Shown here: one piece after another, positions 9,517 through 39,888 of the stretch
Numbering within the stretch: position 1 is the stretch's first letter
Layout: every line of letters starts with the position of its first letter
NCBI GenBank assembly: GCA_031271045.1
Contig: JAISWO010000040.1
Location: 1 to 50,715, forward strand
Direction: 5' to 3'
From: Tannerellaceae bacterium
GTDB lineage: Bacteria; Bacteroidota; Bacteroidia; Bacteroidales; Tannerellaceae
Length of the DNA: 50,715 bases
Made by a program: the position numbers and the translations under genes
The notes under the pieces: model-generated
The model's database searches: none
What the model was told of the DNA's origin: nothing
The model's input: the letters and a program-made list of their open reading frames with translations, nothing else

Positions 9517-9804
9517 CGCGACAAAATAGGGCGCATGCGCGACAAAATAGGGCGCACACGCGACAAAATAGGGCGCACACGCAGGTGCGCCCCTACGTGA
9601 TACCCGACACCCGCCCGCCCTGTCGCCTACCGGACAAACCATTGGTCGGAATGTTACAAATCCGTAGGGGCGCACCTATGTGTGCGCCCTATTTTATTAC
9701 GTATGCGCCCTATTTCATTACGTGTGCGCCCTATTTTGTCGCGCATACGCCCCATTTTATTACGCATGCGCCCCATTTTATTACGCATACGTCCATTTCA
9801 TTGG
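9517..9804 (+). repeat. Array A: 21-bp units in inverted orientation around an inner hairpin
   Basis: Starting on the first base after the RND stop codon, three direct 21-bp units (core GACAAAATAGGGCGCA) occupy 9517-9537, 9538-9558 and 9559-9579. A perfect 15-base inverted repeat follows (AGGTGCGCCCCTACG at 9583-9597; complement at 9663-9677) with a 65-base spacer. Then come five 21-bp units plus one degenerate 19-base unit in the opposite orientation at 9681-9804 (core TGCGCCCTATTTT). The unit at 9723-9743 is the exact reverse complement of the unit at 9538-9558 or 9559-9579. The whole element could extrude a long hairpin and may end transcription of the efflux operon. Several reading frames stay open through it only because 21 is a multiple of three. 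Confidence 0.9.
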
Positions 9805-9855
9805 AGGCTTTTCTGTATCCTGCTGAAAAAATGTCGGAAGAATCATAATAATTAC

Positions 9856-9863
9856 TATCTTTG
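9856..9863 (+). promoter_or_regulatory. Bacteroidetes -7 box (TATCTTTG) just before array B
   Basis: TATCTTTG is a perfect TAnnTTTG match. The expected transcription start falls a few bases later, at about the first unit of array B (9868). The array would then be the 5' leader of the gene at 10140. No clear -33 element is seen. Confidence 0.55.
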
Positions 9864-9867
9864 TAGC

Positions 9868-10098
9868 GATCCCATTAGAAATCAATTCGATCCCATTGAG
9901 AAGAAATTGGATCCCATTGAGGAGAAATTGGATCCCATTGAGAAGAAATTCGATCCCAGCCGGAAGAAATTCGATCCCAACCGAAAGAAATTCGATCCCA
10001 ACCGGAAGAAATTCGATCCCAACCGGAAGAAATTCGATCCCAGCCGGAAGAAATTCGATCCCAACCGGAAGAAATTCGATCCCAATTGGAAAAAATAA
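9868..10098 (+). repeat. Array B: eleven tandem 21-bp units
   Basis: Eleven head-to-tail 21-bp units run without gaps from 9868 to 10098. The core is GATCCCAACCGGAAGAAA. Early units (9868-9951) carry CCATTGAG in place of CCAACCGG, so the array is graded from one variant to another. Each unit begins with GATC. The last unit ends in TAA. In one frame it would encode a DPNRKKF heptad, but all three forward frames stay open for long stretches, there is no convincing start signal, and I regard coding as unlikely. It lies between a -7 box and the gene at 10140. Confidence 0.92.
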
Positions 10099-10139
10099 AA
10101 GAGAAAAATATAGAATTTTAATCCTTAAAGCAATAAATT

Positions 10140-10844
10140 ATGTCCGGACGAGGATGGATACCGAACAGTAGGAGAGAAGTTTACCGCTTATTACTCAAAG
10201 CTAAGGGCCATATAGCAGCCAACTTGGTCCGCCTTGGGATGCAGCAGGGTATGCCGCTGGGAGATTGGTACCGCGACTTTTGCGACGGGCCGGCGGCCCA
10301 ATATATGGACGCCTTCTTCGAATGGGAGAACCCCTCCACCCGAACGCGCCTGGCAAGCGAACGTATGACGGAGGCCGAAGCCGAATTTCTGCCCGCCTTG
10401 CGCGAACTTTATCACGTGATGGTCTCCCATCCCGACGTCCTGAATGACGACCTCGCCGCCTGCGGCTTCCCCAAACGACGAGCCGGCAAGTATAAACCGT
10501 CGCCCGTCGCCAAGGATCCGCCCGGCTTTGCCATCACGCCGCTCACCAGCCACCGCCTCCGGATCGACTTCTTCTACATCACCGGAACCGGCAAGCCACG
10601 CAAAGGCAAGCTCCGCGGACAATATGGCGCCGAAATCCGCTGGGACTACGTTGCATCCCCCGGCAGCGATCCTGATCCCGACCCCGACAGCCTCCTCTGC
10701 TCCGAAATCGCCACGGCTTCTCCCTTCGTCCTCGCCTTCCCCCCCGACAACCGCGGGCAACTCGTCCGCATCGCCCTGCGATGGGAAAACCGCCGCGGAC
10801 AAAAAGGCCCCTGGAGCCCCCCGGCCGAATGTCCGATTCCTTGA
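10140..10844 (+). CDS. Unrecognised conserved-looking protein, 234 aa
   Basis: I do not recognise this protein. It has no signal peptide or membrane segment, so it is probably cytosolic. The first half is helical and basic (SRREVYRLLLKAKGHIAANL, then WYRDFCDGPAAQYMDAFFEW). The second half looks like beta-structure, with a segment VRIALRWENRRGQKGPWSPP close to the C-terminus that resembles the last strands of a fibronectin-III-like fold. Between them lies a proline-rich linker (KPSPVAKDPPGFAITPLT) and a short Asp-Pro run (DPDPDPDS). ATG at 10140 is chosen because it follows the AT-rich leader after array B and precedes all conserved-looking sequence. Codon use matches the GC-rich neighbours. 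The repeat array upstream is its most distinctive context. Confidence 0.75.
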   Translation: MSGRGWIPNSRREVYRLLLKAKGHIAANLVRLGMQQGMPLGDWYRDFCDGPAAQYMDAFFEWENPSTRTRLASERMTEAEAEFLPALRELYHVMVSHPDVLNDDLAACGFPKRRAGKYKPSPVAKDPPGFAITPLTSHRLRIDFFYITGTGKPRKGKLRGQYGAEIRWDYVASPGSDPDPDPDSLLCSEIATASPFVLAFPPDNRGQLVRIALRWENRRGQKGPWSPPAECPIP

Positions 10845-10899
10845 AAAATTATTGCCGTAGAAGTAACCCGGATGTAATAATCATGTAGCAAGAAAAACC

Positions 10900-10907
10900 T
10901 ACCTTTG
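10900..10907 (+). promoter_or_regulatory. Bacteroidetes -7 box (TACCTTTG) of the Oar-like receptor gene
   Basis: TACCTTTG matches TAnnTTTG and lies 28 bases before the ATG at 10935. It overlaps an upstream in-frame TTG, which argues against that TTG as a start. Confidence 0.6.
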
Positions 10908-10934
10908 CGAAAAGAAACAATAAATAAAGAAATT

Positions 10935-13900
10935 ATGAACTCAATCAACCGACTTCTGCAAGGACTCGTACTGAGTTTCCTTATCGTTTGCAACGCCTTC
11001 GGGCAACTTACCACCTCCTCCATCGGCGGACAAGTCGCCGACCAAAGCGAACCCCTGCCCGGCGCCGTCGTTATCGCCGTGCACCAACCCTCCGGCTCGC
11101 GCTACTCGGCCGTCGCCAACGAAAGCGGCCGCTACCTCATACAAGGCATGCGCACCGGTGGCCCCTACAGCGTAGAAGTAAGCTACATCGGCTACCACCC
11201 CTACGCCAAAGACGGCATCTACCTCTCCCTCGGCGAAGCCTCGATCATCGACATCAGTCTCCGCGAATCCTCCCAGGCACTTAGCGAAGTCGTCGTCTCG
11301 GCTACCCGTAGCTTCCGCTCACAGCAAACCGGCGCCGCCGACAACTTCGCCCGCACCGCCATCGAGGCCACGCCCACGATCTCGCGCAGCATCTACGACG
11401 TGGCCCGCCTCACTCCCCAAGCCGCCGTCGCAGGCAGCGGACTGTCCTTTGCCGGAAGCAATAACCGCTACAACAGCTTCCAAATCGACGGGACGGTCAA
11501 TAACGACGTCTTCGGCCTCGCCTCCAGCGGAACCAACGGCGGACAAGCCGGCGCCAACCCCATCTCGCTCGACGCCATAGAAGAAATACAAGTCGTCATA
11601 GCCCCCTTCGACGTCCGGCAAAGCGGATTCACCGGAGCCGGCATCAACGCCATCACCAAGTCGGGAACCAATCAATACCATGCCTCCCTCTACAGCTACT
11701 ACAATGACCAGAATTTCACCGGCACCACCGCCGGCCGCGACGTTGAACAGCGCGAAAAGCTCTCCCAACAGTCCGACCGGACCACCGGCTTCACCCTCGG
11801 AGGACCTATCATGCAAGATAAGCTCTTCTTCTTCGCCAGCGCAGAACAGGCCGCCAAAACTTACCCCTCGTCCTACAACGTCGGCGCCGGGTCTAACGTC
11901 ACCCCCGACGAGGCCAACCAAATCGTCGGCAAACTCAAAACCCTCACCGGAGGATACGACGGCGGAGGATACGGACCGCAAGACATCAACACCGAGTCCG
12001 TACGACTGCTCGGGCGCATCGACTGGAACATCAACGAACGGAACAAATTCTCCGCCCGTTACAGCTTCCTGACAGCCTCCCAGCTCATCTTCAGCAATAC
12101 TCCCAATGCCCTCCACCTGAACAACAACGGCTATACGATGAACAACACGACCCATTCCCTCATCGCCGAATGGACCTCCAACATCTCCTCCACCTGGTTC
12201 AACGAACTCCGCGCCGGCTTCACCAGCGTCCGCGACTTCCGCGAAATCCCCGGACAAGCCATCCCCTACGTCCGCATCAACCTGTCCAACAGCCGGACCG
12301 TCGAACTCGGATCCGAACGATATTCACCCGCCAACTACCTCAACCAGGACATCTGGACCATCACCGACAACGCTACCTGGCGACACGGCAAACATGAGTT
12401 CACCTTCGGAACACACAACGAGTTCTTCACGATGGCCAACCTCTTTATCCGCGAGAACTACGGCTCCTACGTCTACAACTCCATCGACGACTTCCTCTCT
12501 ATCGGAACCGCGACAGAAGCCGCCCCCTACGAATACAACTACTCCTTCTCGCGCGAAGACATCACCGGCAGCAAACGCTGGGCCCCGCAATTCAGCGCCG
12601 CCCAGCTCGCCTTCTACGCGCAGGACAACTGGGCCGTGACGCGACTCTTCAGCCTCTCCTACGGCCTGCGCATCGACTTCCCGCTCTTCATGGATAAACC
12701 CGGCGAAAACCCCGCCTTCAATGCCTCCGCCATCGCCAAAGAGTTCGACGTAGCCACCAACCAAATGCCCTCCTCTACGCCCCTGTTCTCGCCCCGCGCC
12801 GGCTTCCGCTGGTATCTCGACGACGACCGGCGCAGCCTCGTCCGCGGCGGGCTCGGTATCTTCACCGGACGCATCCCCTTCGTCTGGATCTCCAACAGTT
12901 TCTCCAACACCGGCGTCGAATACAGCCGCACCCGCCTCCAGTCGCGCGACATGACGGCCGCCATCGCCGACGGCTTCCGCTTCCAGATCGACCCCACCCG
13001 GCAATACCAGCCCTCGGCCCGCATGACCAGCGAAATCGACGTCGTCGCCCGCGACTTCAAGTTCCCCCAAGTCCTGCGCGGCAACCTTGCCTTCGACCAC
13101 ACCTTCCCGAACGGCCTCAAAGCCTCCGTCGAAGGCCTCTACTCCAAAACCCTCAATAACGTCCTCTACCAAAACCTCGTCGTCGAAGAAAGCGGCCGCT
13201 ACCTCCAGAACGGAGGCGACCGCCGCCCCCTCTACCAAGCCGCCGTCAACCCCGCTACCGGCGCCGCTTACACACAGGAATACACCGGCATCGTCTACCT
13301 CGGCAACTCCAGCAAAGGATATACCTACAACCTGACCGCCAAGCTCGAAAAAGACTTCGACTTCGGTCTCGACCTCATGCTGGCCTACACCTACGGACGA
13401 TCCAAAGGTATGAACGACGGAACCTCCAGCCAGGCCCTCTCCAACTGGTCCTACAACGAAAACTACCAGGGACCGAATAACCCTGAGCTTTCCTGGTCCG
13501 ACTTCGACCTGCCCCACCGCATCATCGGCTCCCTTTCCTACCGCAAAGAGTATGCCCGCCGCTTCGCCACCACCGTCAGCCTCATCTACAACGGACAGTC
13601 CGGCAGCCGGTACAGCCTCTGCTACCAGTACAACATCAATAACGACGGAGCCTCAGGCAACGACGTCCTCTACATCCCCACCGACGCCGAACTCGCCTCG
13701 ATGAACTTCCGCGACATCACCTCCGGAGGCAATACCGTGACCGCCGACCAGCAACGCGCCGGCCTGGGCGCCTGGATCAACGAACACGCCGACATCCGCG
13801 ACCTCAAAGGCAAATACGTCGAACGCAACGGCCTGCTCGGCCCCTTCGAACATCATTTCGACCTCCACATCGCCCAGGATTTCTACGTCAACATCGCCGG

Positions 13901-14138
13901 ACGGCGCAACACCTTCCAACTGTCGTTCGACATCCTCAACGTCACCAACCTCCTGAACCGCGCATGGGGGCTGTACAACAGCGTCGGCTACTCCTACACG
14001 CCGATAGCCGTCAGCCAGGTCGATGCCGACGGTGTCCCTACCTTCCAGTTCAGCAAACCTGCCGGCAAGAACCTCTACGGTATCTCCGACTACAATTCCC
14101 GCTGGCGTTCCCAGGTAGGCCTTCGCTACATCTTCTGA
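10935..14138 (+). CDS. Oar-like TonB-dependent outer-membrane receptor
   Basis: A 1067-residue protein beginning MNSINRLLQGLVLSFLIVCN with signal cleavage after NAFGQ. Residues ~25-115 form a carboxypeptidase-regulatory-like domain (GGQVADQSEPLPGAVVIAV ... VSYIGYHPYAKDGIYLSLGE). The plug domain follows (SEVVVSATRSF, NRYNSFQIDGTVNNDVFGL, AIEEIQVVIAPFDVRQSGFT, INAITKSGTNQYH). The last ~750 residues are beta-barrel strands ending in an aromatic C-terminus (RSQVGLRYIF), the usual barrel-assembly signal. This order matches the Oar-like receptors of Bacteroidetes, whose ligands are mostly unknown. It is not paired with a SusD. It is a single transcription unit, from the -7 box at 10900 to the terminator at 14153. 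An alternative TTG start 30 bases upstream was rejected because it lies in the promoter box. Confidence 0.9.
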   Translation: MNSINRLLQGLVLSFLIVCNAFGQLTTSSIGGQVADQSEPLPGAVVIAVHQPSGSRYSAVANESGRYLIQGMRTGGPYSVEVSYIGYHPYAKDGIYLSLGEASIIDISLRESSQALSEVVVSATRSFRSQQTGAADNFARTAIEATPTISRSIYDVARLTPQAAVAGSGLSFAGSNNRYNSFQIDGTVNNDVFGLASSGTNGGQAGANPISLDAIEEIQVVIAPFDVRQSGFTGAGINAITKSGTNQYHASLYSYYNDQNFTGTTAGRDVEQREKLSQQSDRTTGFTLGGPIMQDKLFFFASAEQAAKTYPSSYNVGAGSNVTPDEANQIVGKLKTLTGGYDGGGYGPQDINTESVRLLGRIDWNINERNKFSARYSFLTASQLIFSNTPNALHLNNNGYTMNNTTHSLIAEWTSNISSTWFNELRAGFTSVRDFREIPGQAIPYVRINLSNSRTVELGSERYSPANYLNQDIWTITDNATWRHGKHEFTFGTHNEFFTMANLFIRENYGSYVYNSIDDFLSIGTATEAAPYEYNYSFSREDITGSKRWAPQFSAAQLAFYAQDNWAVTRLFSLSYGLRIDFPLFMDKPGENPAFNASAIAKEFDVATNQMPSSTPLFSPRAGFRWYLDDDRRSLVRGGLGIFTGRIPFVWISNSFSNTGVEYSRTRLQSRDMTAAIADGFRFQIDPTRQYQPSARMTSEIDVVARDFKFPQVLRGNLAFDHTFPNGLKASVEGLYSKTLNNVLYQNLVVEESGRYLQNGGDRRPLYQAAVNPATGAAYTQEYTGIVYLGNSSKGYTYNLTAKLEKDFDFGLDLMLAYTYGRSKGMNDGTSSQALSNWSYNENYQGPNNPELSWSDFDLPHRIIGSLSYRKEYARRFATTVSLIYNGQSGSRYSLCYQYNINNDGASGNDVLYIPTDAELASMNFRDITSGGNTVTADQQRAGLGAWINEHADIRDLKGKYVERNGLLGPFEHHFDLHIAQDFYVNIAGRRNTFQLSFDILNVTNLLNRAWGLYNSVGYSYTPIAVSQVDADGVPTFQFSKPAGKNLYGISDYNSRWRSQVGLRYIF

Positions 14139-14152
14139 TACGCTCAGACCAT

Positions 14153-14188
14153 AAAAAAGCTCCGGGAACAATTCCCGGAGCTTTTTTT
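14153..14188. terminator. Bidirectional intrinsic terminator
   Basis: The stem AGCTCCGGGAA / TTCCCGGAGCT has a two-base loop and is flanked by A6 on the left and T7 on the right. It serves both the receptor gene (plus) and the convergent gene ending at 14187 (minus), whose stop codon overlaps the T-run. Confidence 0.93.
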
Positions 14189-15773: not shown

Positions 15774-15804
15774 AATTCTTCTCCTTATATTCTTTAAATG
15801 TGTC

Positions 15805-15812
15805 CAAAGATA
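15805..15812 (-). promoter_or_regulatory. Bacteroidetes -7 box (TATCTTTG, minus strand) for the AAA/PD-(D/E)XK gene
   Basis: The plus strand reads CAAAGATA, i.e. TATCTTTG on the minus strand, 31 bases before the ATG at 15773. This supports the short start for that gene. Confidence 0.6.
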
Positions 15813-20037: not shown

Positions 20038-20077
20038 GAAATGGTTTTTGGTTAAACTTTTATTTTATTCTTGATTG

Positions 20078-28350: not shown

Positions 28351-28468
28351 GTTCTCTATAATCTTCTCAAAATAACGTGAGTTCGATCTAAGTGTACGAA
28401 GGAGTTTCTGCGCCACTTCGCCCTGCAGATACTCCCCGAAGGCTTTGTCCGGATACGTCAGTATGGTT

Positions 28469-28699
28469 TATACTGACGTCAGTGCGACTTATACTGACGT
28501 CAGTGCGACTTATACTGATGTCAGTACGGCTTATACTGACGTCAGTACGACTTGTACTGATGTCAGTGCGACTTATACTGACGTCAGTGCGACTTGTACT
28601 GATGTCAGTACGACTTGTACTGACGTCAGTATGACTTGTACTGATGTCAGTATGACTTGTACTGATGTCAGTATGACTTGTACTGATGTCAGTAATTAG
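28469..28699 (+). repeat. Array C: eleven 21-bp units centred on the palindrome ACTGACGTCAGT
   Basis: Ten full 21-bp units and an eleventh that keeps 15 bases run from 28469 to 28699; a degenerate unit may precede at 28451-28468. The core is TACTGACGTCAGTGCGAC. Units 1, 2, 4, 6 and 8 keep a perfect 12-base palindrome; the others have TGATGTCA with one central change. Variation between units is confined to the spacer (GCGACT, ACGACT, ATGACT) and to that central base, so the palindrome arms are the most conserved part. One frame would spell a YTDVSAT heptad, but I treat coding as unlikely. It lies downstream of nadB and upstream of the susC promoter. Confidence 0.93.
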
Positions 28700-28774
28700 T
28701 CAATATATGTTGTGGGAAGCTGCCGGAGTAATTGAGCGAAGCAGAAATAGGCGCTTATATTTATCCGTTGAAAC

Positions 28775-30337
28775 TCAATGAGGATAATCCAAGGTATAAT
28801 GCAACCCGCGGCTTTCCTTGCGATCAATAGCTTGGCGCATGATAAGGTAGCCGACATTGATCATATTGCGCAGCTCGCAGATGTCTTTCGAGGCAACGGA
28901 ACGTTTGAAGAGATCTTCCGTCTCTTCATAGTTGATGTCTAAACGTTTCCAGGCGCGTTGCAACCGGAGGTCGGAACGTACGATGCCTACGTAGGTGCTC
29001 ATGATTTGTCCCACTTCCTTGGCGCTTTGCGTGATCAGGACCATCTCTTCGGAAGCCTGCACACCTTCGTCGTTCCAGGCGGGAAGGTTTTCCTGGTACG
29101 TCAGGGAATCCAGCAGTGGAATGCTGTGCCTGGCCGCAGCATCGGCATAAACGACGGCTTCGATCAGCGAATTGGAGGCTAACCGGTTGCCTCCATGCAA
29201 GCCCGTGCAGGAACATTCTCCTACGGCGTAAAGGCGACGGATAGACGAACAGGCGTTCAGATCAACCCATATTCCTCCGCAGAGGTAATGTGCCGCAGGG
29301 GCTACCGGGATGTAGTCTTTGGTTATATCGACTCCTATTTCTAAGCATCGTTTGTAAATAGAAGGGAAATGGGCTTTCGTCTCTTCCGGGTCTTTGTGGG
29401 TGACATCCAGATATACATGTTCATCTCCCCTGAGTTTCATCTCATTGTCGATGGCGCGGGCTACGATGTCGCGCGGAGCCAGCGACAGGCGGCTGTCGTA
29501 TTTCTGCATAAATTCTTTTCCATCCAATGTACGAAGCACTGCCCCATAGCCGCGCATGGCTTCCGAGATAAGAAATGAAGGACGGTCGCCTTCGTGATAT
29601 AATGCGGTGGGGTGGAACTGAACAAATTCCATATCCTTCACCGTTCCTTTGGCGCGATAGACCATCGCAATACCGTCGCCTGTAGCCACCAACGGGTTCG
29701 TTGTGGTCTGATAGACGGCGCCGATACCTCCGGTTGCCATCAATGTGATTTTGGAAAGGAATGTATGAATCTTGCCCGTAGCTATATCCATGATATAGGC
29801 TCCGTAACATTCAATGTCGGGCGTCTGCCGCGTAACGGTTACTCCCAAATGATGCTGTGTAAGTATCTCAATGGCGAAATGATTTTCATAGACAGTGATG
29901 TTGGGATGTTTCCGGACGGCTTTTATCAGACTGGCCTGTATCTCGGCACCGGTGCTGTCTTTATGGTGCAGGATCCGGAACTCGGAGTGTCCGCCTTCCC
30001 GGTGGAGATCGAAGTTGCCGTTATCGTCTTTATCGAAATCAACGCCCCAACTGATCAAATCTCTGATCTGGCGCGGCGCATTCCGAACGACCATCTCCAC
30101 CGCCTCCCGGTTGCTAAGCCAGTCGCCGGCAATCATGGTGTCTTCGATATGTTTTTCAAAATTATCGGTTATCCGGTTTGTCACTGAGGCAATCCCGCCT
30201 TGTGCAAAATACGTATTGGCTTCTTCCAGGTTTGTCTTGGCAATTAAGGCTACATTTCCTTTGTTAGCTACTTTCAGGGCAAAACTCATCCCGGCAATGC
30301 CGGAACCGATCACCAGGAAATCAATTTTATGAACCAT
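28775..30337 (-). CDS. nadB: L-aspartate oxidase
   Basis: This 520-residue FAD enzyme oxidises L-aspartate to iminoaspartate, the first step of de novo NAD synthesis. The FAD-binding Rossmann motif is at the very N-terminus (FLVIGSGIAGMSFALKVA). It is followed by TYFAQGGIASV and the substrate-site stretch HREGGHSEFRILHHKDSTG, both typical of NadB and shared with fumarate reductase flavoproteins. Further signatures are LMATGGIGAVYQTTTNP and ALYHEGDRPSFLISEAMRGYG; the C-terminal helical domain is complete. Length agrees with NadB (about 520-540). It is the last gene of pta-ackA-nadB with an 8-base gap to ackA. nadA and nadC are not in the window. No terminator is visible between its stop and array C. 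Confidence 0.95.
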   Translation of the reverse strand: MVHKIDFLVIGSGIAGMSFALKVANKGNVALIAKTNLEEANTYFAQGGIASVTNRITDNFEKHIEDTMIAGDWLSNREAVEMVVRNAPRQIRDLISWGVDFDKDDNGNFDLHREGGHSEFRILHHKDSTGAEIQASLIKAVRKHPNITVYENHFAIEILTQHHLGVTVTRQTPDIECYGAYIMDIATGKIHTFLSKITLMATGGIGAVYQTTTNPLVATGDGIAMVYRAKGTVKDMEFVQFHPTALYHEGDRPSFLISEAMRGYGAVLRTLDGKEFMQKYDSRLSLAPRDIVARAIDNEMKLRGDEHVYLDVTHKDPEETKAHFPSIYKRCLEIGVDITKDYIPVAPAAHYLCGGIWVDLNACSSIRRLYAVGECSCTGLHGGNRLASNSLIEAVVYADAAARHSIPLLDSLTYQENLPAWNDEGVQASEEMVLITQSAKEVGQIMSTYVGIVRSDLRLQRAWKRLDINYEETEDLFKRSVASKDICELRNMINVGYLIMRQAIDRKESRGLHYTLDYPH

Positions 30338-30345
30338 CCTCTGTT

Positions 30346-31548
30346 TTACTTCTTACTTAATATTTCCATTGTGTCGGAAGCAATCATGTATTCTTCATCC
30401 GTTGGCACGACCATGACGGTCACGCGGCTGTCGGGAGCGCTGATAATCTTTTCTTCTCCACGCATACCGGTGTTCTTTTCATTGTCTAACCGGATGCCCA
30501 TAAATTCCATACCGGAGCATACTACTTCCCGTGTGCTCCATTGATTTTCACCTACGCCTCCGGTAAATATCAGGATATCCAATCCTCCCAAGGCCGCGGC
30601 ATAAGCGCCGATGTATTTCTTGATACGGTAATTATATACTTCCAAGGCCAGAATGGCTCTTTTGTTGCCTTCTGCTACGGCGGCTTCAATCTCCCGCATA
30701 TCGGACGAGATTCCCGAAAGCCCCCATACGCCGCTTTGTTTATTGATGAGGTCGGAGAGGCCTTTTATATCCAAGCCTTCCTTGTCCATAAGATAAATCA
30801 GGGCGCCGGCATCAATGTCGCCGCAACGGGTTCCCATCAATAATCCTTCCACAGGTGTTAGTCCCATAGATGTGTCGACTGATTCTCCGTTTTTAATGGC
30901 CGTAAGCGAGCCGCCATTGCCTATATGGGCTGTAATGATACGCTGCTCTCTGTAAGGCACACCCAATATTTCGCAGGCACGTGCCGACACATACCGGTGG
31001 CTGGTTCCATGAAAACCGTAACGGCGGACACCATAGTTTTTATACATGGAATACGGGACGCCATACATATAGGCATAGTCGGGCATGGTTTGATGAAACG
31101 CCGTATCAAACACTCCGACCTGGGGCGTATGCGGCAGCAAGGCTTGCATGGCGCGGATACCTTTCAGGTTGGGCGGATTGTGGAGAGGCGCCAAGTCGAT
31201 ACATTCGACCATTTTGCCAATGACTTCAGAGGTGATTTCCACACTGCTGCTGAAGGCTTCCGCCCCGTGCACGACACGATGTCCGATGGCGTCGATCTCC
31301 TGGAAAGAACGAATGCATCCGTAGGTTTCATCCTTGAGGATATGAAGGATAAATTCAATGGCGGCCGTATGTTCCGGAAGGTCGTGCTCCAAAGTGATTT
31401 TCCTGCCGTCGGGCAAGGTGAATTTCAGAAACGAACCGGGCAAGCCCAGTTTCTCTACGACTCCCTGCGCCAACGTCTCATGGCTGTCCATGTTGAACAG
31501 TTTGTATTTTACGGATGAGCTTCCGCAATTTAAAACCAATATCTTCAT
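30346..31548 (-). CDS. ackA: Acetate kinase
   Basis: A 400-residue cytosolic kinase that converts acetyl phosphate and ADP to acetate and ATP, the energy-yielding end of overflow and fermentation metabolism. The ASKHA-fold phosphate-1 motif MKILVLNCGSSSVKYKLF opens the protein. Other signatures are GHRVVHGAEAF, GVFDTAFHQTMP, YGVRRYGFHGTSHRYV and the adenosine motif ILIFTGGVGEN near the C-terminus. Length is the family norm. It lies 11 bases downstream of pta and 8 bases upstream of nadB on the minus strand, forming one operon, and works directly with Pta. Confidence 0.97.
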   Translation of the reverse strand: MKILVLNCGSSSVKYKLFNMDSHETLAQGVVEKLGLPGSFLKFTLPDGRKITLEHDLPEHTAAIEFILHILKDETYGCIRSFQEIDAIGHRVVHGAEAFSSSVEITSEVIGKMVECIDLAPLHNPPNLKGIRAMQALLPHTPQVGVFDTAFHQTMPDYAYMYGVPYSMYKNYGVRRYGFHGTSHRYVSARACEILGVPYREQRIITAHIGNGGSLTAIKNGESVDTSMGLTPVEGLLMGTRCGDIDAGALIYLMDKEGLDIKGLSDLINKQSGVWGLSGISSDMREIEAAVAEGNKRAILALEVYNYRIKKYIGAYAAALGGLDILIFTGGVGENQWSTREVVCSGMEFMGIRLDNEKNTGMRGEEKIISAPDSRVTVMVVPTDEEYMIASDTMEILSKK

Positions 31549-31559
31549 TGTTAATCTAT

Positions 31560-32570
31560 TTATTTCGATTTAAGTCCGATAGCCTGATTGGCGGAAATGG
31601 CTACCATTTTATATATATCGTCGGAAGAACATCCGCGAGACAGATCGTTCACCGGGGCAGCCATCCCTTGCAGAATAGGTCCCACCGCCTCAGCGCCTCC
31701 CAAACGTTCAACTAATTTGTATGCTATATTACCTACCTCGAGTGAAGGGAATACCAATACGTTGGCCTTTCCCGCAATAGCGCTGCCGGGAGCTTTCCTT
31801 GCCCCTATTTCAGACACCAAAGCCGCATCGGTTTGCAATTCACCATCAATCTGTATGTCGGGCGCCATTTCTTTTGCCAGGCGAGTGGCTTCGACCACTT
31901 TGTCCACCATTGGATGCGAGGCGCTGCCTTTGGTAGAGAAACTCAGCATGGCCACACGTGGTTCAAAACCGGCTATCGCTCGCGTAGTATGAGCTGTTGC
32001 TACGGCAATCTCGGCCAATTCGGCAGCAGTAGGGTTAGGTATAACGGCACAATCGGCAAAGACAAGCAAACCGTTTTCGCCGTAATGCGAAGCTTTCGTA
32101 AACATCAGGTAGGCTCCGGATACGCTGCTCATGCCGGGCGCTGTCTTGATAATTTGCAGCGCAGGACGCAGGACGTCTCCGGTCGTATTGAAGGCGCCGG
32201 CTATTTCGCCGTCGGCGTCTCCGGCTTTAATCATCAGGCAAGCCAGATAAAGAGGGTTCTCTACTAATTTGGCGGCTTTTTCGGGGGTCATGCCTTTTTT
32301 CTGCCGTAATTGATAGAGCAGGTCTGTATAATCGGCTTTCCGCGGATGGTTGTAAGGGTCTATTATTGTCGCTTTGCCGATGTGTTCCAAGTGCATGGAT
32401 GCGACTGAGTTTTGAATTTCAGAAGGGTTTCCTATCAATAGGATATCTGCTATTTCATCGGCCAGCAGACGATTGGCGGCTATCAGCGTCCGTTCTTCAG
32501 TCCCTTCGGGGAGTACGATGCGTTGTCTGTTAGCTTTAGCACGTGCGAGGATACTTTGTATTAAGTTCAT
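31560..32570 (-). CDS. pta: Phosphate acetyltransferase
   Basis: A 336-residue enzyme exchanging acetyl-CoA and phosphate for acetyl phosphate and CoA. It is the short, catalytic-domain-only form (about 330 residues), lacking the N-terminal DRTGG region of the E. coli enzyme. Characteristic stretches are [57 protein letters not shown] and [11 protein letters not shown]. It heads the pta-ackA-nadB operon, with a -7 box at 32617 and a leader of about 40 bases. Co-expression with acetate kinase is standard; linkage to nadB is less usual. Confidence 0.96.
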
Positions 32571-32616
32571 TTTGGAATGATTTTGTTGTTTTTTATTATC
32601 GCGGTGTATTACCTCG

Positions 32617-32624
32617 CAAAGGTA
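32617..32624 (-). promoter_or_regulatory. Bacteroidetes -7 box (TACCTTTG, minus strand) of pta-ackA-nadB
   Basis: The plus strand reads CAAAGGTA. A TTTG sits 22 bases further upstream on the minus strand (CAAA at 32647-32650), slightly more than the usual -33 spacing. It separates the pta operon from cdaA. Confidence 0.65.
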
Positions 32625-32693
32625 TGAAAATGCAATACCGGGTTTGCAAAACGAGGGGTGTTTTCATAAATGGAGATGCGTCTTTTAGAAGAT

Positions 32694-33479
32694 TTAACAG
32701 AAATCCGAGACTTTCCGTTCTCCGGAAAGGATCTGCTGGAGTTCCTCCGCAGTGATATTACCGGCCAGACGTCCTTGACAGGCAACGGATATTTTCCCCC
32801 GTTCTTCCGACACGATGATAACCAAGGCGTCGGTCTCCATCGACATACCCAGCCCCGAACGGTGGCGCAATCCGAAGTCTTTCGGCAGAACGGCGTGTTG
32901 GGCAACCGGCAGGATACAGCCGGCAGCCTTGATCCTGTTGTCGGAAATAATCATAGCGCCGTCGTGCAAGGGACTGTTCTTAAAGAAAATATTCTCTATC
33001 AACCGGGCATTCACATCGGCATTAAACATCTCTCCCGAATGCTCGTAAACAGTAAGATCCATCTCCTGGCCGATTACAATAAGCGCACCGGTTTTCTTAC
33101 GTGCCATATTCATACAAGCAAGGACAACGGGAGCCACGTATTTATTCTCGTTTTCCGAGTTTTCGTTTTTTCCCTTGAAGATGTTAGAAAAGATTTTCCA
33201 CTGCCAACGCGAACCCAGTGCAAAAAGAAAACGTCGTATCTCGTCCTGAAAAAGAATAATCAGCACCAGAACGCCTACGCTGATAAATTTATCCAGGATA
33301 GCGCCCATCAAACGCATTTCAAACACTTGCGAAACGAGTATCCATACGACAATAAATGCGATGATACCCGTAAAAAGCACAGTCGTGCCCGAAGCTTTCA
33401 TCAGCTTGTATACCTGATACAGAAAAAAGGCTACCAACAGAATATCAATAATGTCTTTTATTCCGGCGTGCATCCACAT
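32694..33479 (-). CDS. cdaA: Membrane-bound diadenylate cyclase (c-di-AMP synthase)
   Basis: A 261-residue CdaA/DisA_N protein that joins two ATP into cyclic di-AMP. Three hydrophobic helices fill the first ~85 residues (DIIDILLVAFFLYQVYKL, VLFTGIIAFIVVWILVSQVF, FISVGVLVLIILFQDEI). The DAC domain follows with the catalytic DGAMII and the RHRSGLGMSMETDALVIIVS motifs intact. In Bacteroidetes c-di-AMP signals in osmotic and cell-wall homeostasis. It is the last gene of a minus-strand run and overlaps the end of folP by 22 bases, the arrangement commonly seen in Bacteroidales. No c-di-AMP phosphodiesterase or YbbR partner is adjacent. Confidence 0.94.
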   Translation of the reverse strand: MWMHAGIKDIIDILLVAFFLYQVYKLMKASGTTVLFTGIIAFIVVWILVSQVFEMRLMGAILDKFISVGVLVLIILFQDEIRRFLFALGSRWQWKIFSNIFKGKNENSENENKYVAPVVLACMNMARKKTGALIVIGQEMDLTVYEHSGEMFNADVNARLIENIFFKNSPLHDGAMIISDNRIKAAGCILPVAQHAVLPKDFGLRHRSGLGMSMETDALVIIVSEERGKISVACQGRLAGNITAEELQQILSGERKVSDFC

Positions 33480-34339
33480 AATGAGTCGCTTTTTGTGTAT
33501 TGTTCAACTAATCGTACCGCTTCTACCGCCTCCCGGACATCGTGCACACGCAGGATATCGGCGCCTTTGAGCAAGGCTAAGGTGTTTAATACGGTCGTCC
33601 CGTTCAGGCTTTCCTCTGAAGTGATATCAAGTGTTTTATAAATCATCGACTTGCGCGAAATACCTACTACAAGGGGACGTTCGAAGAGGGCAAATTCATC
33701 GAGAGAGTGCATCAGCTCAAAATTCTGTTCCGTCGTTTTACTGAATCCGAAACCGGGGTCGAGGATAATGTCGTTCACTCCCAAAAGTTCCAGTTCGTAG
33801 ATTTTGTCGGCAAAGTATTTCCGGATATCCACGATCAGGTGGTCGTAAGTGGTAAACTGCTGCATTGTCAAAGGGGTGCCACGCATGTGCATCAGTATGT
33901 AAGGCGTCTTAAGAGCGGCTATGGCGCGAAACATACCGGCGTCTAATTCGCCTCCGGAAATATCGTTGATAATGGCGGCCCCATATACTTCTACCGAACG
34001 ACGGGCTACGCCGGATCTGAAGGTATCGATCGAAACGATGGCTTCCGGGTAATGTTTATTCACAATCTTCAAGGCAAGGGCCAGCCGTTTCATCTCTTCT
34101 TCTTCCGACACTTCGGCGGCGGCGGGACGGGAAGAATAACCACCGACGTCGATTATCCGTCCGCCTTCTTCCAGAATCGTTTCAATGCGGCTGTGTATTT
34201 CAGTTTCGGTTTGCTTCCGGCTACCGGTGTAGAACGAGTCGGGAGTGACATTCAGTATGCCCATCACCAGCGGGGGGTGGAGAGACATTAAGCTCCCTTT
34301 GATACAGATCCTGTTATTATTCACTTGAGTCACATTCAT
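33458..34339 (-). CDS. folP: Dihydropteroate synthase
   Basis: A 293-residue TIM-barrel enzyme condensing pABA with dihydropterin pyrophosphate in folate synthesis, the sulfonamide target. Signatures in order are VMGILNVTPDSFYTGS (phosphate/pterin loop), RIIDVGGYSSRP, AIINDISGGELD, ILDPGFGFSKT and VGISRKSMIYK. ATG at 34339 is accepted because the preceding ~20 residues (NNNRICIKGSLMSL) resemble the usual N-terminal strand; there is a 2-base gap to the S41 protease gene upstream. It overlaps cdaA by 22 bases, so their expression is tied. Confidence 0.95.
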   Translation of the reverse strand: MNVTQVNNNRICIKGSLMSLHPPLVMGILNVTPDSFYTGSRKQTETEIHSRIETILEEGGRIIDVGGYSSRPAAAEVSEEEEMKRLALALKIVNKHYPEAIVSIDTFRSGVARRSVEVYGAAIINDISGGELDAGMFRAIAALKTPYILMHMRGTPLTMQQFTTYDHLIVDIRKYFADKIYELELLGVNDIILDPGFGFSKTTEQNFELMHSLDEFALFERPLVVGISRKSMIYKTLDITSEESLNGTTVLNTLALLKGADILRVHDVREAVEAVRLVEQYTKSDSLCGCTPE

Positions 34340-34341
34340 TG

Positions 34342-35949
34342 TTAGGAATCTAATCCTTTATTATAGGCAACGGCATCGTTGATGATGCGGAGGGCGGCCT
34401 TATAGCTTTGATTTTCGTCGTTTATGATTTGATAGTAGTCGCTGATGTCGTGCAGATCCCGTGCAATAAGGGCTTTTATCTGGAGTTTGATGAGGGATTT
34501 GGAGTGGTTGTAGGCTTCCGGGTCGAAGGTTATGTCTTCTTTCGTTGCAAGGTCTGTCAATTCTTGCAGGAGTGTTTCCGGAACTTCGAACGATTGTTTG
34601 TATTGGGTTAGTTTCGGATATTTGGAAGTCAGGCGGTCGCGGTTCGTATCCAGATAGTTCATCGCTATCCGGTTAACCAATCCGCTTGCTACCAATTGCC
34701 GGTGGTAGTCCGTATAGGTTGTTGTGTCTATGGGAATGAATATATCGGGCATGATCCCGCCGCCGCCATAGACAGTGCGTTTGCTGATGAGTGTGTTGAA
34801 CTTCAGCGAGTCGGGGAAATGGATACTGTCGGCGCTTATAAATTCGCCACGGTTGTAACGAACGCCCAATTCACGGTTATAGGCTTCCATGTTTCCGTTT
34901 TCATACGGTTTTTGTATGCCCCGTCCGGTAGGCGTATAATAGCGGGATACAGTTAAGCGTATCATAGATCCGTCGGGCAGCGGGATCGGTTTTTGTACCA
35001 GTCCCTTTCCGAAGGTGCGTCGTCCGAGGATAACACCTCTGTCCCAGTCTTGCACGGCGCCGGCCAGTATCTCGCTTGCCGAGGCTGAAGATTCGTCCAC
35101 CATAATCACCAGGCGGCCTTCTTCGAAATTTCCTTTGGAAGTGGCCGTTGCATTTTCGCGCGGCTGGTTATGTCCTTCGGTATAGACGATCAGTTTGTCT
35201 TTATCCAGAAATTCGTCGGCCAGTTCGATGGCGATATTCAGGTATCCGCCTCCATTGCCTTGCAGGTCGAGGATCAGGTGTTTCATTCCTTCCTTTTTCA
35301 GTTTGGTCAGAGCCGTTTGAAATTCTTCCATTGAGGAGGAGGCGAAGCGGCTCAGTTTGATATAGCCGGTTTGTTTGTCGGCCATATAGGCGGCGTCGAG
35401 GCTATAGACGGGGATCTTTCCGCGCGTAATTTTGAAGTCGATCAGTTGGGGTGCTTTGTGACGGAGGACTTTTACCTGCACTTCGGTTCCTTTGGGGCCT
35501 CGCAGACGCCGTTGTATTTCGGAGTTTCTCATTTTCACTCCGGCAATGAGTGTGTCGTCTACCATGATGATGCGGTCGCCGGCCTGCAGGCCGACTTCTT
35601 CCGAAGGGCCTCCGGCAATGACCTGGATGACGTAGAGCGTATCGGTCAGCATATTGAATTGGATGCCGATGCCGTCGAAGTTTCCTTGCAGAGGTTCGGT
35701 GAGTTCTTTTGTCTCTTCCGGGTCTAAATAGTTGGAGTGGGGATCGAGCTTTTCCAGCATACTGACGATTGCGTTTTCGGTCAGCTTCGTTACATTGGTT
35801 GGGTCTACATATAGGTTAGCAATGGCGTAGAGGGACATTGAGAGTTTTCTCGCTTCCTGATTCACCAATTGATTCTGGACCTGATTCTGGGCCTCTGTCC
35901 GGACAAGGGAGCAGAGGATTAGCAGGAGGGGTAATGCAATTTTCTTCAT
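34342..35949 (-). CDS. S41-family C-terminal processing peptidase with PDZ domain
   Basis: A 535-residue periplasmic protease of the CtpA/Prc type. The signal peptide is MKKIALPLLLILCSLVRTEA. An N-terminal helical part leads to a PDZ domain (~80-165: GIGIQFNMLTDTLYVIQVIA, LQAGDRIIMVDDTLI). The catalytic domain has GYIKLSRFASSSMEEF, LDLQGNGGGYLNIAIELAD and the Ser/Lys centre in VDESSASASEILAGA and RRTFGKGLVQ. A C-terminal ~130-residue extension after the catalytic core is typical of the Bacteroidetes subgroup. Such proteases trim or degrade envelope proteins; the substrate here is unknown. It lies 24 bases after coaD in the same direction. Confidence 0.93.
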   Translation of the reverse strand: MKKIALPLLLILCSLVRTEAQNQVQNQLVNQEARKLSMSLYAIANLYVDPTNVTKLTENAIVSMLEKLDPHSNYLDPEETKELTEPLQGNFDGIGIQFNMLTDTLYVIQVIAGGPSEEVGLQAGDRIIMVDDTLIAGVKMRNSEIQRRLRGPKGTEVQVKVLRHKAPQLIDFKITRGKIPVYSLDAAYMADKQTGYIKLSRFASSSMEEFQTALTKLKKEGMKHLILDLQGNGGGYLNIAIELADEFLDKDKLIVYTEGHNQPRENATATSKGNFEEGRLVIMVDESSASASEILAGAVQDWDRGVILGRRTFGKGLVQKPIPLPDGSMIRLTVSRYYTPTGRGIQKPYENGNMEAYNRELGVRYNRGEFISADSIHFPDSLKFNTLISKRTVYGGGGIMPDIFIPIDTTTYTDYHRQLVASGLVNRIAMNYLDTNRDRLTSKYPKLTQYKQSFEVPETLLQELTDLATKEDITFDPEAYNHSKSLIKLQIKALIARDLHDISDYYQIINDENQSYKAALRIINDAVAYNKGLDS

Positions 35950-35973
35950 GACAAATTATGATTCATTTAATGA

Positions 35974-36426
35974 TTATTCTTTTGCTTGGGGGATGAAGGG
36001 GGAGATGTCTTTGCCGTACTTCAGCAGTTCGCGCACGATGCTGGAGCTGATGTGGGTATGTTCGGGTTCGGTGAAGAGGATGAAGGTTTCGATGCCGGTC
36101 AGGTTGCGGTTGATGTCGGCGATACTTTTTTCGTATTCAAAGTCGTTGACGGTACGGATGCCGCGCAGGATGAAGCGTGCGTTCATTTCCTGGGCAAAGT
36201 CGACGGTCAGCGAGTTGTATGCTTCGACGCGCACTCGTGGTTCGCCGGCGTAGAGGCGGCGTATGGTTTCGATGCGTTCTTCGAGGGAGAAATAAGACTG
36301 TTTGTTGTCGTTGATACCGATGGAGATGATGAGTTCGTCCACAAGTCCGAGTCCGCGGGTTACGAGCGAATGATGTCCGATGGTAAAGGGGTCGAAGGTG
36401 CCGGGGAAGAGGGCGATCTTTTTCAT
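35974..36426 (-). CDS. coaD: Pantetheine-phosphate adenylyltransferase
   Basis: A 150-residue nucleotidyltransferase for the penultimate step of coenzyme A synthesis. The ATP-binding motif is [18 protein letters not shown] (T/H-I-G-H at the N-terminus) and the C-terminal ISSSIVREL motif is intact. The [17 protein letters not shown] and [15 protein letters not shown] stretches are characteristic. It overlaps the parE stop by 4 bases and precedes the S41 protease gene, so it is mid-operon. Confidence 0.96.
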
Positions 36427-38279
36427 GCTATTTCTTCTTCTATAACCAGGTTGTCGATGATGAAGTTTTGCCGCTCCATGGTGTTTTTACCCATATAAAA
36501 TTCCAGCATTTCCTTTACGAGGTCTTCTTTACGCATGGTTACCTGGTCCAGGCGTATGTCTTTTCCGATGAAGTGTTTGAATTCGTCGGGCGATATTTCT
36601 CCCAGTCCTTTGAAGCGTGTTATTTCCGGGTTTTTGCCGGCGGCTTTCATGGCTGTGAGGCGTTCTTCGTCGGTGTAGCAGTACCAGGTTTGCTGTTTGT
36701 TGCGTACGCGGAAGAGGGGGGTTTGGAGGATATAGACGTGGTTGCTTTTGATCAGGTCGGGGAAGAACTGGAGGAAGAAGGTGATCAGTAACAGGCGGAT
36801 GTGCATACCGTCGACGTCGGCGTCGGTTGCGATGATGACTTTATTGTAGCGCAGGCTATCGAGGCCGTCTTCTATATTGAGGGCGGCTTGGAGGAGGTTG
36901 AACTCTTCGTTTTCGTAGACGATCTTTTTGGTGAGTCCGAAGCAGTTCAGGGGTTTTCCGCGCAGGCTGAAGACAGCTTGGAGGTTGGGGTCGCGGCTTT
37001 TGGTGATGGAGCCGCTGGCGGAGTCTCCTTCGGTGATGAAGATACAGCTTTCTTCCGTCAGGGGGCCTTTGGAGTCGTTGAGGTGGATGCGGCAGTCGCG
37101 GAGTTTCTTGTTATGGAGATTGGCCTTTTTAGCTCGTTCGCGCGCCAGTTTGGTTACGCCGGCGATGGCTTTGCGTTCTTTTTCGGAGTCTAATATTTTG
37201 CGGAGCAGGAGGTCGGAGGTTTCGGTATGTTTGTGCAGGAAGTTGTCTAATTCTTTCTTGATGAAGTCGCCGATAAATTTGCCGACAGTTGGTCCTTGGG
37301 GGCCCATATCTTTGGAGCCTAATTTGGTTTTGGTTTGGCTTTCGAATACGGGTTCTTCTACTTTGATGCTGATGGCGGCTACGACGCCGGCGCGGATGTC
37401 GGAGTATTCGAAGTTTTTGTTATAGTATTCTTTTATGACGCGTCCGATGTGTTCTTTGAAGGCGGAGAGGTGGGTTCCTCCCTGGGTGGTGTACTGTCCG
37501 TTGACGAAGGAGTAGTATTCTTCGCCGTATTGGTTGCTGTGGGTGATGACCAGTTCGATGTCTTCGCCCTTGAGGTGGATGATGGGGTAGAGTGGTTCGG
37601 TGGTCATGTTTTCGTTCAGGAGGTCTACCAGGCCGTTGCGCGAATAGAATTTCCTGCCGTTGTAGAAGATGGAGAGTCCGGAGTTGAGAAAGACATAGTT
37701 TTTGAGCAGCGTTTCGATGTATTCGTCTTTGTATTCGTAGTCTTTGAATACTTCTTTGTCGGGGATGAAGCGGATGAAGGTGCCGTTGGTTTCCTGGGTG
37801 GGGGCGATTTCTTTTTCTGCGGTGATGATGGCGCGGCTGTATTCGACTTGTTTGGATTCGCCGTCGCGGTTGCTGCGGATCAGGAAGTAGCTGCTCAGGG
37901 CATTGACGGCTTTGATGCCGACACCGTTCAGTCCGACGGATTTCTTGAAGGCTTTGCTGTCGTATTTGGCGCCGGTGTTCATTTTGCTGGATACGTCGAC
38001 GACTTTTCCCAGGGGGATGCCGCGTCCGTGGTCGCGTACGGAGACGGTTCCACCTTCTACTTTTACTTCGAGGTTTTTGCCGTATCCCATCATGTATTCG
38101 TCGATGGAGTTGTCGAGTACTTCTTTTAGGAGGACGTAGATGCCGTCGTCGGCATGTGTTCCGTCGCCCAGTTTGCCGATGTACATACCGGGGCGTCGTC
38201 GGATGTGTTCCATCCAGTCGAGGGTTTTGATGTCATCCTCTTCATAGTTTGCATTTGTTTGAAAGATTTTCTTTTCCAT
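36423..38279 (-). CDS. parE: DNA topoisomerase IV subunit B
   Basis: A 618-residue type IIA topoisomerase ATPase subunit. GHKL ATPase motifs are [26 protein letters not shown] and [18 protein letters not shown]. The transducer domain follows, and the Toprim region holds [26 protein letters not shown] and [15 protein letters not shown]. The C-terminus ends soon after Toprim. I call ParE rather than GyrB because the protein lacks the GyrB insertion and because its length matches the Bacteroidetes ParE; a GyrB paralogue elsewhere is expected. With ParC (not in the window) it decatenates sister chromosomes. It follows the acetyltransferase gene by 7 bases and overlaps coaD by 4. Confidence 0.88.
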
Positions 38280-38286
38280 TGTTGGT

Positions 38287-39417
38287 TTATAGTTGTTTTT
38301 TGAAGGCTCGTCTGGTTTTATGGTGTTCTTGCCGGAAGTAGTCCCATTGTGCCTGCACGGCTTTGTTGGTTTCGAGTTCGGGGTTACTTTCTGCGTATAC
38401 GGTTCCTGCTTTCTGGTATACGGGTATCAGGTCGTTAAAGAAAAGGGCGTTGATGCCTTTGCCCCGGTATTCGGGTGTGACGCCTGTGAGGTAGAGGTCG
38501 ACGACTTTGGGTTTGCCGTAGAGGGCGCGCATCAGGGGGATGAATCCGAAGGGGAAGATGCGTCCGCGGGCTTTCCTCAGGGCGTGCGAGAGGTTGGGCA
38601 TGGTGATGGCGAATCCTACGACCTGGTCGTCGGCTTCTCGTACGACGACGGTGATCATGTCGAGGCGGAGCATGGGGATATACATCTGGACGTAGTATTC
38701 TATTTGTTTTTCGGTGAGCGGGACGACGCCGTAGAGCGGGGCGTAGGCTTCGTTCAGTGCGTAGAAGATTTTGTTGGCATAGGGCCAGATGTCTTTGCGT
38801 TTTTTGAACTTGAGTACTTTGAGTCCGTATTTATGTTGTGCGATTTCGCCGATGCGCCAGTGTTTTTCGGGTATTTCCCGGGGGATATAGATCTTGTATT
38901 CTTTCCAATCCTGGGCTTTGTCGTATCCGAGACGTTCCAGGTGGAGGGGGTAGTAGGGGTGGTTGTAGATGGTTGCCATGGTGCTTAACTGGTCGAAGCC
39001 GTGTACGAGCATGCCTTCGTGGTCCATGTCGGTAAAGCCCAGGGGGCCGTGTATTTGGTCCATGCCTTTTTCGCGGGCCCATTGTTCGACGGCTCCAAAG
39101 AGTGCGTCTACGACGTCGTCGTCGTCGATGAAGTCGACGAATCCGAAGCGTGCGGCTTTCTGTTGCCAGATTTCGTTGGCCTTGTGATTGATGATGCCGG
39201 CTATGCGTCCGACTATTTTTTTGTCTTTATAAGCGAGGAAACAGATGGCGTCCGATACCTCGAAGGCGGGATTTTTCTTCCTGTCCAAGGTCATCATCTC
39301 TTCGTCGATCAGTCCGGGTACGTGGTAGGGGTTGCCTTTATACAGTTCGATATTGAACTTTACGAACTTTTTCAGTTCCTTCCTGCTTGTTACTTCTTTG
39401 ATTTCTACTATTGCCAT
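38287..39417 (-). CDS. GNAT-like acyltransferase family protein
   Basis: A 376-residue protein of a Bacteroidetes family usually annotated as N-acetyltransferase. There is no signal peptide. The C-terminal part shows the GNAT acetyl-CoA loop-like [20 protein letters not shown] (R-G-K-G). The first half has the repeated pattern [19 protein letters not shown] and [20 protein letters not shown] seen in tandem-GNAT aminoacyl-chain transferases, so two GNAT-like halves are likely. Substrate unknown. ATG at 39417 follows a -7 box (39439) by about 22 bases, making this the first gene of the parE-coaD-S41-folP-cdaA run. Confidence 0.78.
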
Positions 39418-39438
39418 CGTTTTGTTTTATTTGGAAGG

Positions 39439-39446
39439 CAAATTTA
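39439..39446 (-). promoter_or_regulatory. Bacteroidetes -7 box (TAAATTTG, minus strand) of the parE operon
   Basis: The plus strand reads CAAATTTA, matching TAnnTTTG on the minus strand. It would start transcription of the acetyltransferase-parE-coaD-S41-folP-cdaA run. The rest of 39447-39574 shows nothing I recognise. Confidence 0.55.
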
Positions 39447-39574
39447 CGTATTATATTTTATCTGTGACGAATCGGTTTCTATAAATTGAGGCGAGCATCG
39501 CCTACGGCATGATTCTCTGTTGTTTCTTCTGTTTTGTGTTCGTTCTGTTCATCCGCGTCGGGGCATGAAATGTT

Positions 39575-39888
39575 GTTGGGTTTTATAGTACCTGTTACTT
39601 GGGTGAAAGAAAACCCAGGTGGGTTTTATAGCACCTGTTATTTGGGTGGCATAAATCCCATATGGGATTTATATTGCCTGTTACTTGGGTAATAAAAATA
39701 CCGGAAGGGGTTTATGTGGCCTATTACTTGGGAGATGGAAATACCTGTTGGGGTTTGTGTAGCCCATTACTTGGGAGATGAAAATACCTGTTGGGGTTTG
39801 TGGGGCCCATTACTTGGGAGAAGGAAATACCTGTTGGGGTTTGTGGGACCCATTACTTGGGAGAAGGAAATACCGGATGGGTGGGTTT
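39575..39888. repeat. Array D: 43-bp tandem units, each able to form a short hairpin
   Basis: The anchor TTAC/TTTGGG recurs at 39595, 39638, 39681, 39724, 39767, 39810 and 39853, exactly 43 bases apart each time. Between anchors each unit has a short inverted repeat: AAACCC-AGGT-GGGTTT at 39611-39626; a perfect 22-base palindrome built on ATAAATCCCAT at 39651-39672; AAATACC...GGGGTTT in the later units. The two halves change together between the first two units, while later units tolerate a G-T pair and one mismatch. Period 43 is not a multiple of three, so it is not coding. It begins 18 bases downstream of the DUF6261 stop (minus strand) and is probably in its 3' untranslated region. Confidence 0.9.

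Follow-up and report, generated by a model that had tools for sequence, protein, structure and literature searches.

The window analysed here is the whole of a 50,715-nucleotide stretch (contig JAISWO010000040.1 of Tannerellaceae bacterium assembly GCA_031271045.1), which forms contig C54 of a genome designated G000 (2.79 Mb in 74 contigs, 88.5% complete) and carries four tandem-repeat arrays, A to D. The initial annotation had described them as arrays of exactly 21-bp (A, B and C) or 43-bp (D) units. All four are real, and Tandem Repeats Finder (TRF), which was used for the array calls, returned B and C as direct arrays of 21 bp and D as a direct array of 43 bp, but A is not a single run of exact 21-bp units; it consists of two opposed blocks around a pair of palindromes resembling repetitive extragenic palindromic (REP) elements (Table 1). 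The length of 231 bp given to both B and C did not hold, with TRF spans of 213 vs 240 bp, and the equality hinges on the ends chosen. The unit sequences are unrelated, as had been noted: the units of A to D do not cluster with one another, and each array has relatives elsewhere in its own genome.

Table 1. Array features in the window (positions are those of the whole stretch)
Feature	Position	Strand	Description	Basis
Array A, left block	9516..9582	+	21-bp unit ACGCGACAAAATAGGGCGCAC, 3.2 copies	TRF and sequence reading
GTAG-tagged palindrome, REP-like, first of inverted pair	9571..9596	-		Sequence reading
GTAG-tagged palindrome, REP-like, second of inverted pair	9664..9689	+		Sequence reading
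Array A, right block	9683..9802	-	Inverse of the left-block 21-bp unit family, 5.8 copies, 82% matches, 1% indels	TRF
Array B	9884..10096	+	21-bp unit AATTCGATCCCAACCGGAAGA, 10.1 copies, 91% matches, 0% indels, span 213 bp	TRF
Array C	28455..28694	+	21-bp unit, 11.4 copies, 90% matches, 0% indels, span 240 bp	TRF
Array C, right flank	28695..28770	+	92% over 76 bp to the flank of the array on contig C32; stops 4 bp before the stop codon of the open reading frame (ORF) at 28775-30337	
Array D	39577..39881	+	43-bp unit, ~7 copies	Two overlapping TRF rows

The opposed blocks of array A are ~100 bp apart, and the interval contains both GTAG-tagged palindromes. Contigs C25, C5, C62 and C32 of this genome carry similar palindrome pairs, some of which have their own tandem extensions; in the copies on C32 both arms are changed (GCGCAC..GTGCGC vs GCGAAC..GTTCGC). 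Judged from its sequence, array A looks like a REP-type pair with an iterated arm. Also on C32 (L031 9220-9900), the arm of the GTAG palindrome is iterated with an 18-bp period, the sole 18-bp array in the sample of this genome. No GTAG tag was seen in the units of B, C or D.

The unit of array B has no palindrome at score 6, and its family recurs at C67:9680-9875; the 234-residue open frame beside it (10140-10844) has no Pfam match at E 0.001. The array C unit contains the perfect palindrome GTACTGACGTCAGTAC, and alternate units form a 42-bp double unit whose TRF score is slightly above that of the 21-bp reading. Four further loci of the genome carry the C family (C42 twice, C32 and C24). At two places with this family (L035 155-396 and L030 9925-10141) an ATG was seen by eye directly upstream and could start a frame of seven-residue repeats into the arrays. 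The ORF adjoining C encodes a flavoprotein (Pfam FAD_binding_2 and Succ_DH_flav_C) with 92% identity to a protein from a Tannerellaceae metagenome-assembled genome, and our guess is that its product is NadB-like (the nadB-like gene below). For array D, a distant relative lies at C31:94006-94303, and relatives in its own genome reach only 65-70% identity.

Arrays A to D are members of a large, mostly intergenic class of minisatellites with many unrelated units in this Tannerellaceae-like genome. We sampled 40 stretches of the genome, eight chosen for holding relatives of A to D and 32 (511,792 bp) chosen by contig number only. Before counting, we dropped arrays of under 2.4 copies, of under 51 bp or with a period below 9, and where periods overlapped, the shortest with a score of at least 60% of the best was retained. 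In the 32 unselected stretches, 33 of 35 arrays had units of 20-23 or 41-43 bp and none fell at 24-40 bp: the periods were 21 bp (11 arrays), 22 (1), 23 (6), 41 (3) and 42 (12), plus single arrays of 138 and 279 bp, both open in at least one frame. The same bands held 12 of 13 arrays in the eight selected stretches and 5 of 5 in the window, with A counted as two. The finder returned no arrays in 715,890 bases of shuffled sequence, and its recall was flat: 23 periods between 15 and 60 were simulated, and 20 of 20 arrays were recovered for every one. The unselected stretches all start at contig starts, where arrays gather, and the density of 33 per 512 kb is probably too high for that reason. 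Eight of the 35 arrays reach a contig end (L022, L023, L032, L036, L146, L149, L152 and L154); arrays probably break this assembly.

The 51 arrays of this genome with units of 18-24 or 40-44 bp represent 40 unit families, 7 of which were found at 2-5 loci within a sample of 26% of the genome. Unit length is kept as sequence varies: TRF reported 0% indels in 40 of the 51 arrays, and overall ~1188 bases were mismatched vs 46 indel bases. Gene context was taken from a simple purpose-made gene caller, whose calls are rough. By this measure 42 of the 51 arrays overlap no called gene, and five, B included, lie mostly within a called ORF that may be spurious. Flanking genes were co-directional for 25 arrays, divergent for 9 and convergent for 8, with 9 arrays at an edge; the available gaps amount to 49,845, 20,655 and 15,623 bp, respectively, and the orientation of the flanking genes overall follows the gaps.

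Taken with six other genomes of the genus, this genome gave 73 unit families of period 9-65, and 68 of them were at 21-23 or 41-43 bp. Both length classes are present in G003 (19 of 23 arrays in the two bands in 173 kb) and G013 (6 of 7 in 71 kb). G001 (200 kb) had 9 of 11 arrays in the bands, with 2.6 to 4.2 copies and 22 bp in 8 of the 11, and G009 (82 kb) had 3 of 3. The nadB-like protein also led to 80 Bacteroidales loci (1.49 Mb in all, one locus overlapping the G003 sample). Of their 48 arrays, 34 were in the bands, and the most frequent period was 22 bp (18 arrays). The length pattern is thus strong in this genus and in some other Bacteroidales, and it fades outside. The very strong genome-wide excess near 21 and 42 bp in arrays of differing units, which recurs in related genomes, is the support that the initial annotation had asked for, and the four arrays are not alone.

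The individual arrays turn over between species: A, B and C are species-specific within the genus. An array C query matched 2 of 18 genomes of the genus, its own and one at 69%, and an A/B query matched 3 of 18, its own included; the search for the D family covered its own genome only. Orthologous loci were compared in 14 cases across the genus: 13 lack any array behind the nadB-like gene, the position of C, and the remaining one, in G003, carries an unrelated 23-bp array there. In G009 a weak 22-bp array lies on the opposite side of that gene. Synteny between the window and a contig taken to belong to G006 (L041) runs from 28780 to 39457 of the window; the last 668 bp of that contig, where the window has D, are free of arrays. 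A protein in a record titled Pseudoflavonifractor (L116) is 78% identical to this Bacteroidales one, and the title or the bin is probably wrong.

Helical phasing, by which the initial annotation placed every unit on the same face of the helix, was not supported. Among the 18 short arrays of the unselected stretches, 6 have 23-bp units, and each copy of a 22- or 23-bp unit adds a rotation of 34 or 69 degrees, respectively, at 10.5 bp per turn; no class of three turns (31-32 bp) is seen, although it too would be in phase; and A/T in the units showed no excess at 10.5 bp in either class (short class, second harmonic, z 0.9 and -0.6; long class, fourth harmonic, z 0.5 and -0.6). Strict phasing is rejected on these three results, and an array of binding sites on one face likewise fits the 21- and 42-bp periods but not the common 22- and 23-bp arrays. 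At the sixth harmonic (~7 bp), A/T was in unexplained excess in the long class (z 4.2 and 2.7); in the short class it was depleted at the third harmonic (z -3.4). The best quantum of the periods was ~20.6 bp (resultant 0.915, with 0.914 at 21 bp) vs 0.834 at 10.5 bp. Together with the 22- and 23-bp arrays and the missing three-turn class, this quantum argues for a ruler of ~21 bp and its double rather than a helix-face rule.

The long class is not simply the short class doubled. Identity at half the period was clearly raised (0.62-0.71) in just 3 of 31 arrays of 41-43 bp, and averaged 0.34 (a best-of-three value) vs 0.24 at other lags; most 41-43-bp units are not recent dimers of 21-bp units.

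Palindromes in the units were counted in 106 families from 131 arrays of all groups, controls included. An inverted repeat was present at score 5 in 57 of the 106 families vs 20 with a mirror repeat, and at score 6 in 35 vs 7. Between copies, inverted-repeat positions were less variable in 44 families and more variable in 10 (mean 6.4% vs 14.4% elsewhere in the unit), while mirror-repeat positions were less variable in 10 and more in 7, that is, no different. This enrichment of inverted repeats, with positions about half as variable as the remainder, is what is new here. In 66 short arrays of other genomes the symmetry axes lie mainly between base pairs, with z of 9.5 to 16 for loops of 0, 2, 4, 6 and 8 and only 2.0 to 2.8 for loops of 1, 3, 5 and 7; odd loops are likewise enriched in the short arrays of G000 and in long arrays. 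When the outer five pairs were used to set the axis, 25 of 106 families had one between base pairs vs 2.9 in shuffles, and the second pair from the centre was complementary in 17 of the 25 and the first in 11. For the 12 families with an axis on a base pair, the corresponding numbers were 7 and 5. Central pairs that are often complementary fit double-stranded dyads better than hairpins, whose loops would stay free. Among one-sided changes, G.T prevailed over A.C (105 vs 65).

Minisatellites are usually seen as accidents with arbitrary unit length. Two narrow bands with an empty gap between them, in dozens of unrelated arrays of one genome and in some of its relatives, point to a physical ruler in the making or keeping of these repeats. 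A shared generating or selecting process, as the initial annotation had supposed, is likely, although a single sequence-preferring DNA-binding protein is hard to fit with ~40 unrelated families. We give an even chance to the reading that these minisatellites grow by slippage or template switching, with small palindromes as frequent starting points, and that a ruler of ~21 bp governs unit length. Each array would begin from a short sequence, often a quasi-palindrome and in the case of A a REP element; replication slippage or template switching would then lengthen it, and recombination could copy units, sometimes with pieces of flank, to other places. The ruler, with its step of ~21 bp or double, would most likely be a fixed geometry of replication or recombination, or a sequence-indifferent protein covering about two turns. 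The data are explicable without any host function.

Several results weigh against growth by slippage from palindromes under such a ruler. Slippage by itself should give scattered unit lengths, contrary to what is seen, so that the ruler is an added assumption, and change in array length is presumed. Of the 106 families, 49 are without an inverted repeat at score 5. In 41-43-bp arrays of other genomes the enrichment of odd loops is as strong as that of even ones, and axes on a base pair also exceed expectation (12 families vs 2.9). Families at score 4 or below largely keep the same lengths (20 of 26 in the bands of 21-23 and 41-43 bp, and a further one at 24), and since largely the same two lengths occur with or without palindromes, the palindrome is not the ruler. 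Compensating double changes were not clearly above expectation (15 vs 11.8, with 8 of the 15 re-paired). Low variation at palindrome positions could also mean that binding of a protein is selected for. From bacterial mutation work, a neutral tidying of quasi-palindromes is familiar; such tidying and selection on a bound dyad both predict lower variation, and these data do not distinguish the two. Between divergent genes lie 7 of 15 placed 41-43-bp arrays vs 2 of 26 arrays of 21-23 bp; the numbers are small, but such an excess is unexpected under a purely neutral process. The bands are also not universal, with 1 of 3 arrays in them in G005 (59 kb) and 0 of 2 in G002 (44 kb), both of the same genus. 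Sampling a single stretch from each of 40 other families of the order (794 kb) gave 5 of 17 arrays at 20-23 bp and none at 41-43 bp, and 20 further genomes of the class and phylum (400 kb) gave 4 of 11 at 20-23 bp, two of these four frame-open, and none at 41-43 bp.

Other repeat systems resemble these arrays in part. The minisatellites used for bacterial typing by variable-number tandem repeats (VNTR) and multilocus VNTR analysis (MLVA) have widely spread unit lengths; they too are tandem arrays with copy-number change, whereas lengths here keep to two narrow bands. In plasmids, iterons and partition-site arrays typically form one sequence family per replicon, beside the initiator or partition gene, and share direct repeats of about two turns, whereas here tens of families are spread over many contigs. 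Clustered regularly interspaced short palindromic repeats (CRISPR) were rejected, the units being contiguous and alike with no unique spacers between them.

The closest known repeats are the 22/23- and 41-nt minisatellites of Porphyromonas gingivalis. According to PMC4596501, 19 dispersed copies of an intergenic 23-nt minisatellite (BrickBuilt) lie inside a miniature inverted-repeat transposable element (MITE), a 41-nt minisatellite (MITE464/PgRS) lies in another MITE, 22-nt repeats are also present, strains gain or lose whole 23-nt units, and dyad symmetry was noted; PMC5771137 adds annotation of BrickBuilt. The likeness is broad, extending to intergenic, spacer-free direct repeats, dispersal, limitation to a species, dyad symmetry and unit sizes of 22/23 and 41, and here, as for BrickBuilt, a unit family can occupy several loci. 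The number of families differs, ~40 in a 26% sample here vs a few in P. gingivalis. Among the titles and abstract openings of the matches listed, a search that left subscription papers mostly uncovered, no report of this length rule in Bacteroidales was seen, and one may be in print. Tentatively, and with rather less than even confidence, we suggest that some Bacteroidales have a sequence-independent array-making process with a ~21-bp ruler in single or double steps, that it yields tens to hundreds of unrelated minisatellites per genome, and that the P. gingivalis repeats were its first described products. The class would tie those repeats to a wider phenomenon, and may also explain broken assemblies.

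Part of the same evidence can be read in terms of binding: a DNA-binding protein, perhaps one of the nucleoid with weak sequence demands, might line up as dimers on palindromes about two or four turns apart, with the arrays kept as nucleators of filaments. Unit lengths of two and four turns, palindromes that continue into the centre as double-stranded dyads do (the 25 of 106 families above, against 2.9), the reduced variation at palindrome positions and the raised share of 41-43-bp arrays that lie between divergent genes (7 of 15) would all be accommodated. We nevertheless regard it as fairly unlikely, given ~40 unrelated unit families in one genome, 22- and 23-bp arrays that drift around the helix, the lack of a three-turn class and of a 10.5-bp A/T signal, and the 49 of 106 families without an inverted repeat at score 5.

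Spread by transposition, with the arrays as cargo of non-autonomous transposons of the MITE type, as proposed for BrickBuilt and MITE464/PgRS, is in our view improbable. Unit families do recur at several loci, the P. gingivalis elements have the same two unit sizes, and the right flank of C is shared over 76 bp with C32. Short left flanks are alike in C32 and in one of the C42 arrays (C42b), and a 150-bp block lies near both C42 arrays. However, common flanks were found only for family C, one of the seven multi-locus families, with three others cut by contig ends, which limits the comparison. The leader and tail segments that define BrickBuilt are present here only in part, for family C, and terminal inverted repeats were not established, the family C flanks having been read by eye without a dedicated search. 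As leader and tail segments are largely absent, the arrays of the window are not filed as BrickBuilt MITEs.

A role as RNA, with tandem hairpins in transcripts stabilising or ending messages, is very unlikely. Many units do contain inverted repeats, and REPs, which array A resembles, have been proposed to work in messages (PMC3733652), but the arrays show no bias to gene 3´ ends, the palindromes tend to continue into the centre, the part that a hairpin would leave unpaired as its loop, compensating changes are not clear, and Rfam gave 0 matches at gathering score in the window, so Rfam RNAs were rejected. Coding of heptapeptide repeats (21 bp as 7 codons, 42 as 14) is scarcely credible and largely refuted for the class, since 22, 23, 41 and 43 bp are not multiples of three and 49 of 68 in-band families are closed in all six frames, although 21 and 42 are divisible by three, 19 of the 68 are open in some frame with 100 bp on either side, 5 of 51 arrays of this genome lie mostly inside a called ORF, and single arrays may be translated.

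For array A the comparison is with GTAG-tagged REPs and bacterial interspersed mosaic elements (BIMEs). REPs of this type are described in PMC3733652 as extragenic imperfect palindromes of 20-40 bp with the tag at one end, arranged in inverted pairs, and the gene for the REP-associated tyrosine transposase (RAYT) may be missing from a REP-bearing genome. Array A likewise has two imperfect palindromes, GTAG-tagged and inverted relative to each other, and related copies occur at other places in the genome; array A differs in adding 21-bp tandem extensions of one REP arm, and no RAYT gene was found. Specifically, the RAYT-type Y1 transposase (PF01797) had 0 matches in G000, which is 88.5% complete, and is present in 6 of 18 genomes of the genus. 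Its distribution rejects RAYT as the array maker, as it is absent from array-rich G000, G003 and G013 and present in G001, G005 and G009. Loss of SbcCD as a cause of palindrome survival was rejected as well: SbcD is above the cut-off in array-rich G000, G003 and G013 and not in array-poor G005 and G009. Overall, SbcD is above the cut-off in 11 of 18 genomes of the genus, and G002 has it with 0 in-band arrays in 44 kb. In a control genome, we also noted a 68-69-bp periodic array (L255 13419-14196) resembling CRISPR, with the repeat GTTTCAATCCACACGCCCGCGTGGGGC...

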